Source: Anaerolineales bacterium | Lineage (GTDB): Bacteria > Chloroflexota > Anaerolineae > Anaerolineales > RBG-16-64-43 | Length of the DNA stretch: 50,075 nucleotides | Assembly (NCBI GenBank): GCA_016932475.1 | Contig: JAFGCU010000026.1 | Span: 156,111 to 206,185, forward strand | Direction of reading: 5' to 3' | Shown: positions 4,888 to 40,649 of the stretch, piece after piece | How positions within the stretch are numbered: position 1 is the first letter of the stretch | Layout: the number at the start of each line of letters is the position of its first letter | Program-made: the position numbers and the translations under genes | Notes under the pieces: generated by a model | The model's database searches: none | The model's input: the letters and a program-made list of their open reading frames with translations, nothing else | Told to the model about the DNA's origin: nothing

Positions 4888-6231
4888 ATGGCGAAAGTCA
4901 AGGGAGTGCCGCAAAAAGTGGCCGTAATCGGCTTGGGGAAACTGGGTTCGCCCATGGCGGCCGCCGTTTCCGCCCGCGGTGTGACGGTCATCGGGGTGGA
5001 TTTGGATTCGACCAAGGTGGAAAAAATCAACCGAGGCGAAGCGCCGGTCAACGAAACCGACCTGGCGGATTACATCCGCCGCGGCCGGGAACGCCTGCGC
5101 GCGACCACGGACCTCGAAGCCGCCACCGCCGAGGCGGAAATCGTTTTCATCATTGTGCCCACCCCGAGCGAGCCGCAAGGCGGCTTTTCGATCCGGCATG
5201 TGCTTGCGGCGTGCGAGCCGATCGGCCGCGGATTGAAAAAGAAGAAGGCTTTCACGGTGGTGGTGATCACCGCCACCGTGATGCCCGGTTCCACCGGCGG
5301 GGCGATCCGCGAGTGCCTGGAAAAGCATTCGGGCAAGACGGCCGGGAAGGAATTCGGCCTGTGCTACAGCCCTGAATTCATCGCGCTCGGCAGCGTGATC
5401 CATGATTTTCTCAACCCGGATTTTATTTTGTGCGGAGAGTCGGACCCGCGCTCGGGGGAGATCCTCGACGCGTTCTATCAGACGGTCTGCGAGAATGAGC
5501 CGTACATCGCGCACATGAATTTCGTCAACGCCGAGCTGTCCAAGCTGGCGGTCAATACCTTTGTCACCACCAAGATCACCTACGCCAACATGCTGGCCCA
5601 AATCTGCGAGCGTCTGCCCGGCGGCGACGTGGACAAGGTGACCGCCGCGATCGGCCACGACACCCGCATCGGCGAAAAGTACCTCAAGGGAGCGATCGGA
5701 TACGGCGGCCCCTGCTTCCCGCGCGACAACCTCGCGATGGGCGCGCTTGCGCGCTCCTTGGAAGCGCAGGCGGCGCTGGCGGAGACAACCGACCGCCAAA
5801 ACCGGGCGGAAGTTATCCGCCTGGCGGATCTGGTGAACCAGCATGCCAAGCCCGGCGCGAAGGTCGGGATCCTCGGCCTTTCCTACAAGCCGGATACCGA
5901 GGTGATTGATGAGTCGCAGGGGATCCTCCTCGCGCGGCAGCTGCTGGATGGTGGCCGGGATTTGTTGGTTTATGATCCGATGGCAATGGACGCGGCGCGC
6001 GTGGTGCTGGGCGAGGGGCCGCAATACTGCGGGAGCGCCGAGGAGTGCATCCGCCAATCGGACGTTGTCGTCATTGCCGTTCCCTGGAAGGAATTTTTCC
6101 TTGTTCCCGAAAACGCGTTTGCCGCGCGGCGAATCGTGCTGATTGACGCCTGGCGGATGGCGCCCGCCGGGTGGCGCAGCAAAACGCGGTACGTACCGGT
6201 CGGGGTGAACGTTCCCGCGCCGAAGGGATAA
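4888..6231 (+). CDS. UDP-glucose/GDP-mannose dehydrogenase family protein (nucleotide-sugar 6-dehydrogenase)
   Basis: A 447-aa NAD-dependent four-electron oxidase of a nucleotide sugar to the uronate, cytosolic. The N-terminal Rossmann motif GLGKLGSP lies near residue 16 and VPTPSEPQGG follows at the end of the NAD domain. The conserved lysine region is KLAVNTFVTTK, the catalytic cysteine is Cys276 in GYGGPCFPRDN, and a C-terminal UDP-binding domain begins about residue 330 (KVGILGLSYKPDT). It has a good ribosome-binding site (AAGGAG about 7 nt before ATG 4888). Whether the substrate is UDP-glucose, UDP-ManNAc or GDP-mannose cannot be decided; YSPEFIALGS departs from the common Y-x-P-E-x-x-x-x-G form. 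It sits between two paralogous unknown proteins and should supply a uronic acid to the glycan. Confidence 0.9.
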   Translation: MAKVKGVPQKVAVIGLGKLGSPMAAAVSARGVTVIGVDLDSTKVEKINRGEAPVNETDLADYIRRGRERLRATTDLEAATAEAEIVFIIVPTPSEPQGGFSIRHVLAACEPIGRGLKKKKAFTVVVITATVMPGSTGGAIRECLEKHSGKTAGKEFGLCYSPEFIALGSVIHDFLNPDFILCGESDPRSGEILDAFYQTVCENEPYIAHMNFVNAELSKLAVNTFVTTKITYANMLAQICERLPGGDVDKVTAAIGHDTRIGEKYLKGAIGYGGPCFPRDNLAMGALARSLEAQAALAETTDRQNRAEVIRLADLVNQHAKPGAKVGILGLSYKPDTEVIDESQGILLARQLLDGGRDLLVYDPMAMDAARVVLGEGPQYCGSAEECIRQSDVVVIAVPWKEFFLVPENAFAARRIVLIDAWRMAPAGWRSKTRYVPVGVNVPAPKG

Positions 6232-6240
6232 TCCTCCATC

Positions 6241-7119
6241 ATGATCACGCTGTTCACCACGGCCAAGCCGTTCACCGGGCACGCGGCCGTCACGCAGTAC
6301 AACGCGCTCGCCTGTTGGCGCAGGCTGCTGCCGCAGGGCGAAGTACTGCTGTTGGGGGCGGAAAAGGGCGCGGCGGAAATCGCGAAGGAGTTGGGGGTGA
6401 AACTCATTCCGGATGTGGAGCGGAATGAGTTCGGGACCCCGCTTCTGCGTTCGATGTTCGCCGCCGCCGAGCGGCACGCGGCCTTCCCGCTGCTGCTTTA
6501 CGCCAACGCCGATATTCTTTTCACAAGCCGTCTGCCTGAGGCGGCCGCACGGCTGGCCGCATGGAGAAGACCTTTCCTGTTGACAGGCCGCCGGTGGGAT
6601 ACCGATATCCGCCAGCGGATCGACTTCCGCCCGCGGGATTGGGAACAGCGGCTTACCGAGACGGCGCATGCCGTGGGGAAACCGGGGATTAAATCCGCGT
6701 TGGATTATTTCCTGTTCCCCAAAGGCGGCTGGGGCGGGGCGGAAGGGCTTGCCGAATTTCCTCCTCTGGCCATCGGCCGTTCCGCCTGGGATAACTGGCT
6801 TGTCTTCTGGGCGCTCGCCCGGAGAATGGATGTGATCAACGGATCGGATTTCATCCTCGCGGTGCATCAAAACCACGATTACAGTCATCATCCGCAAGGG
6901 GCGTATGGGGTGCTAAGCGGCGAGGAGCCCCGCCGGAACTTCGCCATGGCCAGTTACGAACGGTTTCTCTATGGGCCCCCGGATGCCACATTCAGGATCC
7001 GGCCGGATGGAAAAATCGTGCGCGCGTTCTCTGCGGATATTCTGCGCCGCCGACTAAAGACGCTCCCCGACCTGCTGCGAGTATGGATCCTGGGACGGAA
7101 ACGCTGGAAGCCCGGGTGA
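6241..7119 (+). CDS. Uncharacterised nucleotide-sugar-transferase-like protein (paralogue of 3961-4875)
   Basis: A 292-aa soluble protein that begins MITLFTTAKPFTGH and shares, in order, ERNEFGTP, LYANADILF, LTGRRWDTD, LDYFLFPKGGWG, FPPLAIGRSAWDNWL and HQNHDYSHHPQG with the protein at 3961. The NAD-I segment after a predicted strand could serve as the metal/nucleotide site of a GT-A fold, and the conserved Asn-Asp-Trp-rich block is probably the acceptor or catalytic region. It starts 9 bp after the dehydrogenase stop. Two copies flanking a nucleotide-sugar dehydrogenase suggest a shared pathway, for example two uronosyl transfers, but this is inference. No signal peptide or membrane segment is apparent. 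Confidence 0.7.
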   Translation: MITLFTTAKPFTGHAAVTQYNALACWRRLLPQGEVLLLGAEKGAAEIAKELGVKLIPDVERNEFGTPLLRSMFAAAERHAAFPLLLYANADILFTSRLPEAAARLAAWRRPFLLTGRRWDTDIRQRIDFRPRDWEQRLTETAHAVGKPGIKSALDYFLFPKGGWGGAEGLAEFPPLAIGRSAWDNWLVFWALARRMDVINGSDFILAVHQNHDYSHHPQGAYGVLSGEEPRRNFAMASYERFLYGPPDATFRIRPDGKIVRAFSADILRRRLKTLPDLLRVWILGRKRWKPG

Positions 7120-35541: not shown

Positions 35542-36729
35542 ATGATCCCAAAGCGTCCTTTACGGATAGCCATCGCCATTGCGCGCCTGAACGTCGGCGG
35601 GCCGGCCACGCATGTCATCGAACTGGCGGCGGGGCTGCCCCGCGACCGGTTCGCGGTCCGTTTGTTCGCCGGCCGGGAGGGACGCGGCGAGACCGGCATG
35701 CACTACCTGGCGGATGAAAAGGGGGTGCAATCGGAAAGCGTGCCGGCCCTATCGCCCCACCTCGGTCCGGCGGACCTCATTGCATTTTTTCAACTGCTCC
35801 GCATCTTCCGTGCATGGAAACCGGACGTGGTCCACACCCATACCGCCAAGGCCGGGGCCGTCGGGCGGGCCGCCGCCCGCTGCGCGGGTGTGCCGGTGAT
35901 CGTCCACACCTTCCACGGGCATGTCCTGCGCGGATATTTTCCACGCCCGCTGGAAGGTTTTTTCCGCGGCGTCGAACGCAGCCTGACCCGGATCACCGAT
36001 CGGATCGTCACCCTGAGCCCGGCGCTTAAGGCCGATCTGGTCGAGATCGGTATTGCCGGGCCGGAGAAGATCGAAGTCGTCCCGCTGGGAATGGATCTTG
36101 CGGCGCTCCTGGAATGCGATTCCCGCCGCGGTGAATTGCGCGCGGAACTGGGTTTTGGCACCGGCGAGCCGATCGTGGGAATTGTAGGCCGGTTGGTGCC
36201 GATCAAGAATCACCGTCTTTTTTTGGAGGCGGCGCGAAGCATGGTAAACTCGGGAAGTTCCGCCCGGTTTGTCATCGTCGGAGACGGCGAATTGCGCGAA
36301 GTTCTTGGAAATCTCGCCGCAGAAATGGGAATTGCGGATCGGATACGATTCCTGGGCTGGCGGAAAGACATGGTTCCGGTTTATGCCGGGCTGGACCTGC
36401 TGGCGCTCTCCTCGGATAACGAAGGCACGCCGGTGGCGCTGATCGAGGGGATGGCTGCGGGGGTGCCGGTTGTGGCGACCGCGGTGGGGGGCGTGCCGGA
36501 CGTCGTCCGGGATGGAACTACCGGCCGGCTGGTGCCGCCGGGCGACCCGGAGGCGATGCGACGGGCGTGGCGCTCGGCGTTCGAAGAAAAGGAAACGACA
36601 AAACGGATGAGCACGGTGGCGCGGCGGGAAGTGGAAGAGCGATTCGGGTGCGAACGGATGCTCTCCGCGATGGCCGCGCTGTACGGCGAATTGACCGACC
36701 TGAAAACGGGCGCCACGCGCCCGCGGTGA
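35542..36729 (+). CDS. Family 4 glycosyltransferase (GT-B)
   Basis: A 395-aa GT4 enzyme. IAIARLNVGGPATHVIELA is the glycine-rich loop of this subgroup (G-G-P-A-x-H), followed by VVHTHTAKAGAVGRAAAR and the long hydrophobic HTFHGHVLRGYFPRPLEGFF, typical of GT4 enzymes that touch the membrane. The donor domain has IVGIVGRLVPIKNHRLFLE, VIVGDGELREVLG, FLGWRKDMVPVYAGLDLL and SSDNEGTPVALIEGMAAGVP (E-x7-E). It resembles the WbnK/PelF-like group next to sugar-phosphate transferases, and here it lies 6 bp before the WecA-type gene. Confidence 0.92.
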   Translation: MIPKRPLRIAIAIARLNVGGPATHVIELAAGLPRDRFAVRLFAGREGRGETGMHYLADEKGVQSESVPALSPHLGPADLIAFFQLLRIFRAWKPDVVHTHTAKAGAVGRAAARCAGVPVIVHTFHGHVLRGYFPRPLEGFFRGVERSLTRITDRIVTLSPALKADLVEIGIAGPEKIEVVPLGMDLAALLECDSRRGELRAELGFGTGEPIVGIVGRLVPIKNHRLFLEAARSMVNSGSSARFVIVGDGELREVLGNLAAEMGIADRIRFLGWRKDMVPVYAGLDLLALSSDNEGTPVALIEGMAAGVPVVATAVGGVPDVVRDGTTGRLVPPGDPEAMRRAWRSAFEEKETTKRMSTVARREVEERFGCERMLSAMAALYGELTDLKTGATRPR

Positions 36730-36735
36730 TCCATA

Positions 36736-38244
36736 ATGGATTTATACCTCCCACTCGTGATTTTCTCGTTCCTCGCGGCGTTTATCGCCACCCCGCTCAT
36801 CGGAAGGGTGGCGACCCATACGGGGTTTGTCGACGAGCCCAAGCCGCACAAAATGCACGTCCGGCCGATGCCGCTGCTCGGCGGTCTGGCGATCTATCTC
36901 GCCTTGTGCGTCGCCCTGTTTCGGGTGGATTTTTCGACCGAATGGCTCCCGATGCTGGCGGTGGCGGTCGGCGCGACGATGCTCATGCTCATCGGCCTGT
37001 GGGACGACCGGCGCGGGATCGCCCCGCGCGCCAAGCTTCTGGCGCAGGTCGGCGCGGCGCTGCTGGTGACCGCCGCCGGAGTGCGGGTGGAACTCACCCC
37101 GTGGCCGGCGGTCAACATCCTCATCAGCGTGTTCTGGTTCGTGGGAATCACCAACGCGATCAACCTGATGGACAACATGGACGGGCTGGCGGCGGGGACA
37201 TCGGCCGTCTCGGCGCTGTTCTTCACAATCCTGGCCGCCTCCGCCGGGCAGGGGCTGGTGGCCAGCCTGGCCGCGGCGGTGACCGGCGCCTCGCTGGGAT
37301 TTCTCTACTACAATATTTCCCCGGCGATGATCTTCATGGGGGATACCGGCTCGCTGCTCCTGGGTTTTTTACTGGCGGTGATCGGAGTGCGTTATGCTCC
37401 AAGCGAACTGCCGCTCGGATCGACCTGGATGGTGCCGATCGTCGTCATGGGATTGCCGATATTCGACACAACGCTGGTCACGTTCTCCCGCATCCTGAAC
37501 CGGAGGCCGGTTTCCCAGGGCGGGACGGATCATACGTCGCACCGGCTTTCCAAACTCGGGCTGGGCAACCACCGCGCCGTTTTTTCGATGTACCTGGCCG
37601 CGGGGATACTGGGGATCCTCGCCGTCTTCATGACGCATTCGTCGCCGGAATTGGCGACGGTTATTTTCGGTGTGATCCTGGCCGTCGGGCTGATCGCGCT
37701 CATCATCCTGGAGCGGATGCCGCCGATCCCGCCCAACAATCCGCAGGTGGTGATCCTGGCCGAGGATGAGCAGGGGATGGATGCGATCGCCGCGGCGCGC
37801 AGGCTCTCCTCCAATATCGTGGCGGCCGCCTCGCCGCGGACCGAACAGGCGACTCTCCGGAATTATCTGCGCGCATTGGCGTTGGAGCCGGAGGCGTTTG
37901 ACCGCTGGCTGAACGCGGGCGCCGGCGCGGTCCTCGGGCCGGCCGCCGAATGGCAAAAAATCTTCCGCCTGGCCGGACGGATCCTGCCCTGTCCGGAAGA
38001 TCCCGGCATGGAACAACTCCATGCCCTTCTGCGGACGGCGGACCTGATCGTGGCCTGCCGCGGAGGCGGATGGCCCGCGGAGATCCAAGCGGCCGCGGCT
38101 CGCGGCCGAATGCTTGCCGCCCCCGGCGCAACAATTTCCGGCGTTGTGGCCACGGCGGATGATGTCTGGAAAAATTCCATCGGTTTGACCCGGGCGATGG
38201 AAGAGGCGATTCTCGGAGCCCGTCGAAAGGAAAAATCGAAATGA
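36736..38244 (+). CDS. WecA/MraY-type undecaprenyl-phosphate sugar-1-phosphate transferase with C-terminal extension
   Basis: A 502-aa protein. Residues 1-330 are the polytopic transferase: DEPKPHKMHVRPMPLLGG (residues 33-50), GLWDDRRG, NLMDNMDG with Asp146 and Asp149, FMGDTGSLLLGF with Asp203, and the cytosolic GGTDHTSHRL (H-x-x-H active-site loop). This set marks transfer of GlcNAc-1-P or a related sugar phosphate to undecaprenyl phosphate, the first step of many surface glycans. Residues 331-502 are an extra soluble domain (VVILAEDEQGMDAIAAARRL; LNAGAGAVLGPAAEWQ; LIVACRGGGWPAEI) that I do not recognise and that WecA, TagO and MraY lack. The gene overlaps the epimerase gene by 4 bp. Confidence 0.9.
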   Translation: MDLYLPLVIFSFLAAFIATPLIGRVATHTGFVDEPKPHKMHVRPMPLLGGLAIYLALCVALFRVDFSTEWLPMLAVAVGATMLMLIGLWDDRRGIAPRAKLLAQVGAALLVTAAGVRVELTPWPAVNILISVFWFVGITNAINLMDNMDGLAAGTSAVSALFFTILAASAGQGLVASLAAAVTGASLGFLYYNISPAMIFMGDTGSLLLGFLLAVIGVRYAPSELPLGSTWMVPIVVMGLPIFDTTLVTFSRILNRRPVSQGGTDHTSHRLSKLGLGNHRAVFSMYLAAGILGILAVFMTHSSPELATVIFGVILAVGLIALIILERMPPIPPNNPQVVILAEDEQGMDAIAAARRLSSNIVAAASPRTEQATLRNYLRALALEPEAFDRWLNAGAGAVLGPAAEWQKIFRLAGRILPCPEDPGMEQLHALLRTADLIVACRGGGWPAEIQAAAARGRMLAAPGATISGVVATADDVWKNSIGLTRAMEEAILGARRKEKSK

Positions 38245-39215
38245 CGCATACGCTCATCACCGGGGGCGCCGGTTTCATCGGCAGTCATCTTTCCGAAGCG
38301 CTCCTGGCACGCGGAGACCAGGTGACGGTCATCGACGACCTGTCCACCGGCCGCTTTGAGAACATCGAGCCGCTGACCGCCAATAAAAATTTCCGCTTCG
38401 CCCTCGAAACCATCACCAACGAAACGGTCATGGACCGGCTCGGAAGCGAATGCGACCGCATTCTGCACCTGGCGGCCGCCGTGGGAGTCCAGCTGATCGT
38501 CAACGACCCGGTCCGCACGATCGAAACCAATGTAATGGGCTGCGAAGCGGTCCTGCGCGTCGCGCGCCGGTACCGCCGCAAGGTGTTCCTGGCCTCGACC
38601 TCCGAGGTCTACGGAAAAAACAACAAAGTCCCCTTTTGTGAAGAAGACGACGGAGTCTTCGGCGCGACGACCGTCACCCGCTGGGCGTATGCGACCTCGA
38701 AGGCGCTGGACGAGTTTCTGGCGCTGGCCTACCACCGATCGCAGCACCTGCCGGTCGTGATCGGCCGGTTCTTCAACACCGTCGGCCCGCGGCAGAGCGC
38801 GCAATACGGCATGGTCATTCCGCGCTTCGTCAGCCAGGCGCTGCGCGGGGATCCCATCACCGTCTACGATGACGGCACGCAATCCCGCTGCTTCTGCAAT
38901 GTGCGCGACGTCGTCCGTGCGATCCTGCTCCTGATCGAAAATCCGGCCGCGGAGGGGCAGGTGTTCAACATCGGCTCCGTCGAAGAGATCTCCATGCGCG
39001 CGCTGGCCGAAAAGGTGAAAAGCCGCACCGGCTCCGCCTCGAAAATCACGCTCATCCCGTACGAACAGGCGTATAACGGCGGATTCGAGGATATGCGCCA
39101 GCGCATTCCGGACATTCAGAAGATCCGCCGGGTGACCGGATGGCAGCCGGAAATCTCACTCGAAAAAACCCTCGACGAGATCATCGAATTTTTCCGCCGG
39201 CAGCCCAAAGCGTAA
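38241..39215 (+). CDS. NAD-dependent epimerase/decarboxylase (extended SDR; UDP-glucuronate decarboxylase or epimerase-like)
   Basis: A 324-aa cytosolic extended short-chain dehydrogenase. TGGAGFIGSH is the NAD-binding loop (residues 7-16), VIDDLSTG the ribose-binding end, STSEVYG the Ser/Thr part of the active site and YATSK (Tyr150, Lys154) the catalytic pair. GRFFNTVGPRQSAQYGMVIP and TQSRCFCNVRDVV match UDP-xylose synthase/UDP-glucuronate decarboxylase-like and related 4-epimerases. With the dehydrogenase at 4888 a UDP-glucose to UDP-glucuronate to UDP-xylose route is attractive, but epimerase activity is equally possible. It follows the WecA-type gene with a 4-bp overlap. Confidence 0.9.
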   Translation: MTHTLITGGAGFIGSHLSEALLARGDQVTVIDDLSTGRFENIEPLTANKNFRFALETITNETVMDRLGSECDRILHLAAAVGVQLIVNDPVRTIETNVMGCEAVLRVARRYRRKVFLASTSEVYGKNNKVPFCEEDDGVFGATTVTRWAYATSKALDEFLALAYHRSQHLPVVIGRFFNTVGPRQSAQYGMVIPRFVSQALRGDPITVYDDGTQSRCFCNVRDVVRAILLLIENPAAEGQVFNIGSVEEISMRALAEKVKSRTGSASKITLIPYEQAYNGGFEDMRQRIPDIQKIRRVTGWQPEISLEKTLDEIIEFFRRQPKA

Positions 39216-39227
39216 TCCGCGTTCTTT

Positions 39228-40649
39228 ATGACGACCACCTCCTCGATCCCGCGTTCCGGCCTGACCATGTCCGAGCGGCAGGCATTGCTGCTGACGGGAG
39301 ATTTGATATGCGTGGTCATGGCCGTCCTGATCTCGTGGGGGGTCTGGATCTGGATCGACGGCGCGCTTGCGGATCCGATCGGATTCCTGCGGTCGAAGGA
39401 CGCGCTGACGCCGTTCCTGCTGCTCGGGCCGCTGTGGTTTTTCCTCATCTTCCATCTGTACGACCCGCACGTGGCCTTCCATCGGGAACGCACGATGTTC
39501 GGCCTGGCCCTGGCCACCGGCATCTCCCTGATCCCCTACCTTGGGATGTATTTCTTCGCCGCTCCCGGAACGCTGCCCCGCGTCGCCATTCTGGTTTTCC
39601 TCTTTTCCGTTTCGGCGCTGGAGTTCGGCTGGCGGATGCTGGCGATCCGGCTGTTCACGCTTCCGATGCTGCGGCGGCCGGTGGCGATCATCGGCGCGGG
39701 GCGCGCGGGTGCGATGATCCTGCACGTGCTGACCAAGGAGGTTCCGGGGCACTTCCGCGTCTGCGGCATGATCGATGACGACCCGGAAAAACACGGCGGC
39801 AAAGTGCAGGATATCCCGGTTGTGGGAGGCTGGGAACAACTGGAACGGACGATAAAGGAACAAGGTATCTCGGCCCTGATCCTCGCGATCACCGGCCGGA
39901 TCCGCCCGGAGCTCTTCCAGGCCATCCTGGACTGCCAGGAGCGCGGGGTGGAAGTGATCCGCATGCCCGCGTTGTACGAATCCCTGCTTGGGAGAGTCCC
40001 GATCGGCTACCTCAGCGCGGATTGGCTCCTGACCTCGTTCCTCGACAGCGTCCAGCTGTACGACCTCTACAGCCCTCTCAAGCGGCTGATCGACATCCTG
40101 GCCGCGCTCAGCGGGCTTGTGTTCTTTGTTGCGACATTGCCCCTGTTCGCCCTGTTGATCCGCCTGGACAGCCCCGGCCCGATCCTCTTCCGGCAGGAGC
40201 GGTCCGGGAAGGGCGGCCATTCCGTCTGGATCTGGAAATACCGAACGATGGTGCACGACGCCGAATCCGACGGCGAGGCGCGCTGGGCGTCGCCGGCGGA
40301 TCCGCGCGTGACGCGGGTCGGTAAATGGATGCGCCGGACTCGGATGGACGAAATCCCGCAGTTCTGGAATGTGCTGAGCGGAGATATGAGCCTGATCGGC
40401 CCGCGTCCGGAACGGCCGGAGTTGATCGCGCAACTGGAAAAACAGATACCCTTCTACCGCGCCCGCCTGCTGATCCAGCCGGGACTGACCGGCTGGTCTC
40501 AGGTGAATTTTGGTTACGTCCGGACGGTCGAAGACACCGCGCTCAAGCTGGAATATGATCTGTATTACATCCGCCACCGCTCCCTGATGCTCGATTTTAA
40601 AATTTTTCTCCGGACGCTCGGAACCTTCGTCCGGTTCCAGGGATCCTGA
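39228..40649 (+). CDS. Polyprenyl glycosylphosphotransferase (WbaP/Bac_transf type)
   Basis: A 473-aa membrane enzyme that starts a glycan by moving a sugar-1-phosphate (often Gal or Glc) to undecaprenyl phosphate. The N-terminal part has four or five hydrophobic helices, residues about 145-260 hold a CoA-binding-like Rossmann domain (VAIIGAGRAGAMIL), and the C-terminal catalytic domain begins at YSPLKRLIDILAALSG with the re-entrant helix, then WIWKYRTMV, RRTRMDEIPQFWNVL, GDMSLIGPRPERPE and PGLTGWSQV. The Asp-Glu pair in RMDEIPQ and the G-P-R-P-E block are the family active site. ATG 39228 has no strong ribosome-binding site. Its presence beside a WecA-type enzyme means two initiating enzymes in one unit. 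Confidence 0.93.
   Translation: MTTTSSIPRSGLTMSERQALLLTGDLICVVMAVLISWGVWIWIDGALADPIGFLRSKDALTPFLLLGPLWFFLIFHLYDPHVAFHRERTMFGLALATGISLIPYLGMYFFAAPGTLPRVAILVFLFSVSALEFGWRMLAIRLFTLPMLRRPVAIIGAGRAGAMILHVLTKEVPGHFRVCGMIDDDPEKHGGKVQDIPVVGGWEQLERTIKEQGISALILAITGRIRPELFQAILDCQERGVEVIRMPALYESLLGRVPIGYLSADWLLTSFLDSVQLYDLYSPLKRLIDILAALSGLVFFVATLPLFALLIRLDSPGPILFRQERSGKGGHSVWIWKYRTMVHDAESDGEARWASPADPRVTRVGKWMRRTRMDEIPQFWNVLSGDMSLIGPRPERPELIAQLEKQIPFYRARLLIQPGLTGWSQVNFGYVRTVEDTALKLEYDLYYIRHRSLMLDFKIFLRTLGTFVRFQGS

Follow-up and report, generated by a model that had tools for sequence, protein, structure and literature searches.

A WecA-type phosphoglycosyltransferase of Anaerolineales fused to a degenerate YvcK/CofD-type Rossmann domain, a possible regulator in cis

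A polytopic WecA-type phosphoglycosyltransferase of an Anaerolineales bacterium carries a C-terminal tail that almost certainly descends from the YvcK/CofD (UPF0052, GlmR) Rossmann family. The protein is encoded in the window, by which we mean the whole stretch of 50,075 nucleotides analysed here. An enzyme that commits the lipid carrier and a domain of YvcK/GlmR lineage are here a single polypeptide, which suggests a built-in control switch and can be put to test. We consider it about an even chance (probability near 0.5) that the tail acts in cis, in the broad sense, as a regulator with no catalytic activity of its own; its ligand or partner and the direction of its effect are matters that we can only infer.

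Results

The earlier note on this DNA had described a WecA-type transferase with an extra C-terminal tail, and the protein proved to be indeed such a fusion, an intact frame of 502 aa ending in a tail of 176 aa (Table 1). The Glycos_transf_4 profile (PF00953) matched residues 74-219 with an E value of 2.5e-33 and 115.8 bits against a cut-off of 27, placing the core in that family. In an alignment of 10 rows the positions D90, D91, N140, N143, D146, D149, D203, H266 and H269 were invariant, and we take these Asp, Asn and His residues to be the active-site positions, as in the work on MraY and WecA. The predicted model of the core matched MraY (9zno) over 284 residues with a Z of 27.7, and human DPAGT1 with a Z of 26.6. 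The score against the enterobacterial WecA profile TIGR02380 was 104.6 bits, far below the curated cut-off of 326.05, so that 'WecA-type' is correct as a class label and leaves the sugar specificity unassigned. The strongest hydrophobic 19-residue segments of the last membrane helix were centred on residues 311-323 (peak 3.0), and the tail beyond this helix reached a maximum of only 1.06. The active-site loops of the MraY/WecA family are established to face the cytosol; the order of the membrane helices, taken with this topology, would place the tail on the cytosolic side.

Table 1. Features of the fusion gene and its neighbours, in window coordinates
Feature	Position	Strand	Remarks
GT4 glycosyltransferase	35542..36729	+	adjoins the fusion upstream
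Fusion ORF	36736-38244	+	502 aa, no internal stop
Phosphoglycosyltransferase core, WecA/MraY-type, PF00953	36736..37713	+	residues 1-326
C-terminal CofD/YvcK-type domain	37714..38241	+	residues 327-502; fold match begins at residue 334
First strand and loop VVILAEDEQGM	37747..37779	+	residues 338-348; equivalent of the YvcK IGGG(T/H)G loop, glycines lost
LRNYLRALAL helix	37855..37884	+	residues 374-383; opposite LRNCLAALAE in the alignment with the own-genome YvcK (L113)
FRLAGRIL	37963..37986	+	residues 410-417; equivalent to RGR in YvcK and most fused tails
TADLIVACRGGGW	38035..38073	+	residues 434-446; alignment partner in YvcK is ADLIVVGPGSLF
C-terminal helix with basic end GARRKEK	38176..38238	+	residues 481-501; helix from the model; end conserved
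Fusion stop codon	38242-38244	+
NAD-dependent epimerase/dehydratase	38241..39215	+	start overlaps the fusion stop by 4 bases
Monotopic initiating transferase, PF02397 with CoA_binding_3	39228-40649

The tail recurs in close relatives. The fusion proteins of L004 (same genus), L005/L033 and L006 have tails of 168-178 aa with an identical ending motif, (L/S)GxRRK(E/D), and that of L033, the Anaerolineae MAG fen_1073, is 67% identical to the window protein. Since the tails of these relatives agree with that of the window in length, start and basic end, the fusion is not a sequencing error. A frame error fusing two genes and a common disordered extension, the two findings named beforehand as fatal to the idea of a fused domain, were both looked at and neither applies: conserved tails, purifying selection (see below) and a folded model rule them out. 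The three stretches quoted in the earlier note (VVILAEDEQG, VACRGGGWPAE and VVATADDVW) all lie in the tail, and the alternation of strands and helices read from them agrees with the full-length model, in which the tail is alpha/beta. Mean pLDDT per ten-residue block of this model was 60-86 at residues 331-380 and 421-500 and 38-53 at residues 381-420; a model of the isolated tail was poor (pLDDT 48). The window tail is a trimmed form of a longer domain, which measures 192-256 aa in other relatives.

Neither the window protein nor its tail matched PF01933, and the tail had no match in Pfam or NCBIfam. The best 15 phmmer matches of the tail in the PDB were all TPR or DXPS look-alikes, and the PDB matches of a profile made from the four window-family tails were chance ones. 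The tail, previously called an unknown domain, could nevertheless be identified as YvcK/CofD-type by way of longer-tailed relatives, profile-profile links and the structure model. Nine of 15 fusion proteins matched PF01933 CofD at E values up to 10 (best 1.5e-8), eight matched TIGR01826 YvcK (best 4.1e-5) and one matched TIGR01819 F420 CofD. Relative to the PF01933 cut-off, one of six long-tailed relatives (L008) scored above it (34.6 against 30), four scored below and one had no match. Because L008 passes, domain databases may already list this architecture uncommented; no published description of such a fusion was found in the literature searched, a scope that excluded subscription papers and preprints. 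A profile built from 11 long tails retrieved YvcK/CofD-type proteins as all of its six best PDB chains: 2ppv (3.3e-8), 2p0y (1.9e-6), 2hzb (1.4e-5), 2o2z (2.1e-5), 2q7x (3.8e-4) and, of FbiA type, 6uvx (0.048).

Profile-profile comparison by hhalign joined the long tails end to end with YvcK of the same order (probability 98.7, E 2e-16). It also linked them, over 119 columns, to the four tails of the window family (97.6, E 4e-12). Aligned directly to YvcK, the window-family tails gave a non-significant E of 0.024, in an alignment that covers the expected first strand and helix. In HMM searches against the long-tail profile, the window tail scored E 5.5e-5, L033 2.4e-9, L006 1.4e-6 and L004 0.0052, and the best of 200 shufflings of the window tail gave 0.016.

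The structure model led to the same family. With residues 334-502 as query, all five solved YvcK/UPF0052 entries ranked at the top over 151-164 residues, namely 2ppv (Z 11.4, 164 residues), 2p0y (10.5), 2q7x (10.5), 2hzb (10.1) and 2o2z (9.9). CoaBC came next (9.7, 128 residues), then GT-B transferases (9.0). As Z values within 1 of each other count as tied, only 2ppv stands clearly above the non-YvcK folds; the predicted model would place the tail in the YvcK/CofD fold ahead of other Rossmann folds, by a moderate margin, and supports the earlier label 'Rossmann-like'. In a Foldseek search with the full model, the 20 matches at E<=0.001 were all transferases, and YvcK was absent from the best 50 matches. 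Just two of the ten proteins in the model alignment, those of the window and L033, had a tail, so the structure model is independent of the sequence profiles, and the two approaches chose the same YvcK entries separately. Two other origins were considered. CoA_binding_3 showed no profile similarity to window-family or long tails. An F420 CofD origin is less likely than a YvcK one, given one of 15 matches to TIGR01819 against eight to TIGR01826 and the PDB E values of 0.048 against 3.3e-8.

The motifs DDGG, GDxRN and HxxGN were present in all seven YvcK rows of the alignment and in none of the 20 fused tails, which therefore do not carry the motif set of the YvcK/GlmR functional family. The fused tails also lack the asparagine of the VCN motif and an insert, about 45 residues long, that YvcK has. 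YvcK of B. subtilis binds UDP-GlcNAc, and its contacts T14, N218, Y265 and R301 were assayed, of which Y265 and R301 were critical (PMC5482804). Two of these contacts were mapped onto the tails by alignment: T14, which lies in the GGG loop, and N218, placed in VCN by counting. Neither position is kept. The LxxxLxxLA helix, the RGR element, the (A/T)DLIV strand and the last helix are retained. Judged by these motifs lost and elements retained, the tail is a descendant of the YvcK family and not a member of it by function. The GGG loop is present in 13/20 tails, and an asparagine after the DLIV strand in 16/20 (L222 read by eye), in the loop following the strand that bears GPGS in YvcK. The four tails without this shared Asn are those of the window's family, and three of the four have CRGxGW in common instead.

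A survey of domain architectures, which the earlier note had proposed, was carried out with a whole-fusion profile, a match being counted when it extended to position 468 of 541 or beyond. Of the 201 genomes surveyed in the order, 20 had the fusion; they belong to six families (f1, 4 genomes; f2, 1; f3, 2; f9, 2; f10, 3; f15, 8). In G025 (L231) there is an additional fusion, interrupted by an unread base, whose tail fragment matched the long-tail profile at 7.4e-7. Among 301 genomes of the phylum, only the two window-family genomes included (G000 and G003) matched beyond position 345; the other matching genomes had the same type of core and no such tail, in keeping with the earlier statement that WecA, TagO and MraY do not have this part. 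A survey of the class with the long-tail profile misses tails of the window type, for example G000 and G003. In a plasmid search, 130 records contained the core at below 60% identity, and none contained the tail.

A tree of 63 cores (21 fused, 42 unfused) required two changes for the fusion, compatible with one gain and one loss as read from these sequences, and the fusion probably arose once, within this order of Anaerolineae (Chloroflexota). Twelve unfused cores are nested beside fused ones, the enclosing group of 33 rows having support of 98/97. This group of 12 appears to have lost the tail, which implies that the core is able to work without it.

PF01933 was also run on 12 of the fused genomes, G025 included, and 11 of them had a separate strong YvcK match (E <1e-90), the exception being G037, which is 78% complete; the tail therefore does not replace YvcK. 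The window genome (assembly size 3.65 Mb, with the window on contig C45) has a separate intact YvcK (L113) and a separate CofD-like protein (L114). The former (L113:10-1263 (+), contig C13) is a true YvcK with an N-terminal extension of about 100 residues containing two hydrophobic stretches by eye, and may on that account be membrane-bound; L144, L145, L146 and L147 resemble it.

We computed dN/dS for nine long-tailed pairs. In the six pairs with dS of 0.24-0.80, it was 0.15-0.29 for the tail and 0.06-0.31 for the core, the tail exceeding the core in all except L176/L225. Two of the remaining three pairs, with dS >1, gave tail values of 0.33 and 0.19, and L223/L224 gave no usable value. Such low values indicate purifying selection on the tail, in most cases about half as stringent as that on the core; in most pairs the tail evolves at about twice the core's rate. 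The window compared with L004 gave 0.30 for the tail and 0.15 for the core at a dS of about 1, near saturation, and with L006 a tail pN/pS of 0.79-0.96, which is saturated. Between L223 and L224, DNA similarity stops at base 5895, the core/tail border, and returns at 6616, past the gene; protein identity is 88.9% for the cores and 35.7% for the tails, which have no remaining DNA-level similarity. The edge is sharp at the domain border, and a recombination swap and fast adaptation are both candidate causes. In the comparison of the window with L181, part of the tail has a DNA identity of 53-61%, as against 84-92% for the gene that follows. The tail stands out as a local hotspot of divergence bordered by better-conserved flanks.

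The fusion gene lies in a glycan cluster with GT4 enzymes, an FkbM methyltransferase, an epimerase/dehydratase and a monotopic initiating transferase. A homologue of the adjoining GT4 gene is found directly upstream in 18/21 fusion loci (exceptions L175, L176 and L225). The window carries two unrelated initiating transferases, one polytopic and one monotopic, with one gene between them, an order conserved in L180, L181 and L182. In the L174 locus, a separate degenerate CofD-domain protein of 337 aa (L174:1726-2739 (-); PF01933 34.3 bits against a cut-off of 30; N-terminal part hydrophobic by eye) is encoded in the same operon, two genes downstream of the fusion.

Other fusions were met in the surveys. 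In other genomes of the class, a DDGG-less YvcK/CofD-type domain is fused to phosphoglucomutase/phosphomannomutase (L146:826-3165 (+) and L171:1144-3159 (+), the latter with CofD at 4.7e-41 plus PGM_PMM I, II and III); nine class-survey matches had open frames of 760-945 aa, and two of them were read in detail. L022:1501-3297 (+) encodes a WecA-type transferase with a hydrophobic segment and a CoA_binding_3 tail (PF13727, 7.4e-9), and L023, L026, L027 and L032 resemble it, so that such tails make up a second kind of built-in nucleotide-binding-like domain on WecA-type transferases of the order. In an Acidimicrobiia MAG, the 947-aa product of L041:7974-10814 (+) joins a WecA-type transferase to DUF4012 (PF13196 8.5e-29).

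Discussion

In the history that we propose, a Rossmann domain of YvcK/GlmR/CofD type was joined to the C-terminus of the transferase and later lost its catalytic motifs. In this organism the polytopic core would put a sugar-1-phosphate on undecaprenyl phosphate and so initiate a surface glycan. The tail would bind either a cytosolic partner or, at a remodelled site, a nucleotide sugar, and this binding would adjust transferase activity and with it the amount of undecaprenyl phosphate committed to the glycan. The loss of the known ligand residues, taken with the wide conservation of the new Asn loop, suggests a changed ligand or a partner-binding role. That a function is kept is favoured by the low tail dN/dS in six pairs and by retention in six families; the faster evolution of the tail, its loss of DNA-level similarity between L223 and L224, the unfused group of 12, the failure of the window tail to match PF01933 and the non-significant direct comparison of its family with YvcK speak against this explanation. 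There are two precedents: EpsW acts on the initiating transferase EpsZ (PMC12802240), and GlmR/YvcK of B. subtilis has been described as switching partners according to the level of UDP-GlcNAc (PMC7525490).

The narrower proposal that the tail is a nucleotide-sugar gauge, through which the level of a UDP-sugar throttles the use of undecaprenyl phosphate by the enzyme, is rather doubtful. The earlier suggestion that the domain could sense a nucleotide or sugar does gain a basis from its YvcK/GlmR lineage, the B. subtilis member of which binds UDP-GlcNAc, but the mapped catalytic and ligand-contact residues are missing.

The same losses would suit a ligand-free scaffold or dimerisation domain that holds the transferase by the GT4 enzyme, or pairs with itself or with YvcK. 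The GT4 gene adjoining upstream in most loci is in line with this, and rapid divergence between conserved flanks is what a surface co-evolving with a partner might undergo. A pure scaffold, however, would have no need of the GGG loop and the shared Asn that most tails keep, and we regard this explanation as possible, though somewhat improbable. A different question is raised by the window's own family, in which the tail could be a decaying relict, functional in the long-tailed relatives. Its tails are the shortest (168-178 aa as against 192-256 aa) and have neither the GGG loop nor the shared Asn, the tail pN/pS against L006 is high, at saturation, and the neighbouring group is entirely tail-less. 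Decay is nevertheless unlikely in view of the tail dN/dS of 0.30 within the genus, the retention of frame, length and ends in four genomes of the family and of CRGxGW in three, and the fair confidence with which most of the window tail is modelled.

An active enzyme, making UDP-sugar at the membrane from sugar-1-phosphate and UTP, is very improbable. It would have a precedent in the lineage, as GlmR of Listeria is a uridyltransferase that makes UDP-GlcNAc from GlcNAc-1-P and UTP; joint mutation of D40, D41 and N198 lowered its activity about 100-fold (PMC10128056). The DD pair, however, is absent from all 20 fused tails, and the YvcK insert is missing too. With the catalytic motifs and the mapped UDP-sugar contacts lost and the fold kept, the tail is probably not an enzyme, and a regulatory domain in cis is the reading that we carry forward.

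Intact YvcK, the tails that keep GGG and the trimmed window type form a series in which the change of an enzyme fold into a regulator may be followed. Should the gauge be true, the degenerate YvcK domains that are fused to the mutase or stand alone would belong to a broader pattern in Chloroflexota, in which sugar-nucleotide enzymes are under YvcK-derived control. How envelope pathways that share limited undecaprenyl phosphate and nucleotide sugars are regulated is presented as an open question in PMC12802240.

Comparison with known systems

With YvcK/GlmR (TIGR01826, PF01933, UPF0052; PDB 2ppv, 2hzb and 2o2z) the tail shares the predicted fold and the order of elements throughout, with counterparts of the first strand, the LRNxLxALA helix, RGR, the ADLIV strand and the final helix. 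The window tail differs in being a 176-aa remnant of a domain of roughly 320 aa and in being fused to a membrane enzyme, in a genome that also has an intact YvcK. CofD/FbiA of F420 biosynthesis (TIGR01819) belongs to the same superfamily (PF01933) but is farther from the tail than YvcK. Like the polytopic phosphoglycosyltransferases WecA, MraY and DPAGT1, the window protein has a full core in which the acidic and His positions are invariant, and it differs from them by the additional C-terminal domain and a score below the enterobacterial WecA cut-off. In Myxococcus xanthus the cytosolic regulator EpsW acts on the initiating transferase EpsZ (PMC12802240). What the two systems share is only the idea of a cytosolic protein acting on a committing transferase: EpsW is a separate response regulator and EpsZ an unrelated monotopic enzyme, whereas here a Rossmann domain is fused to a polytopic one.
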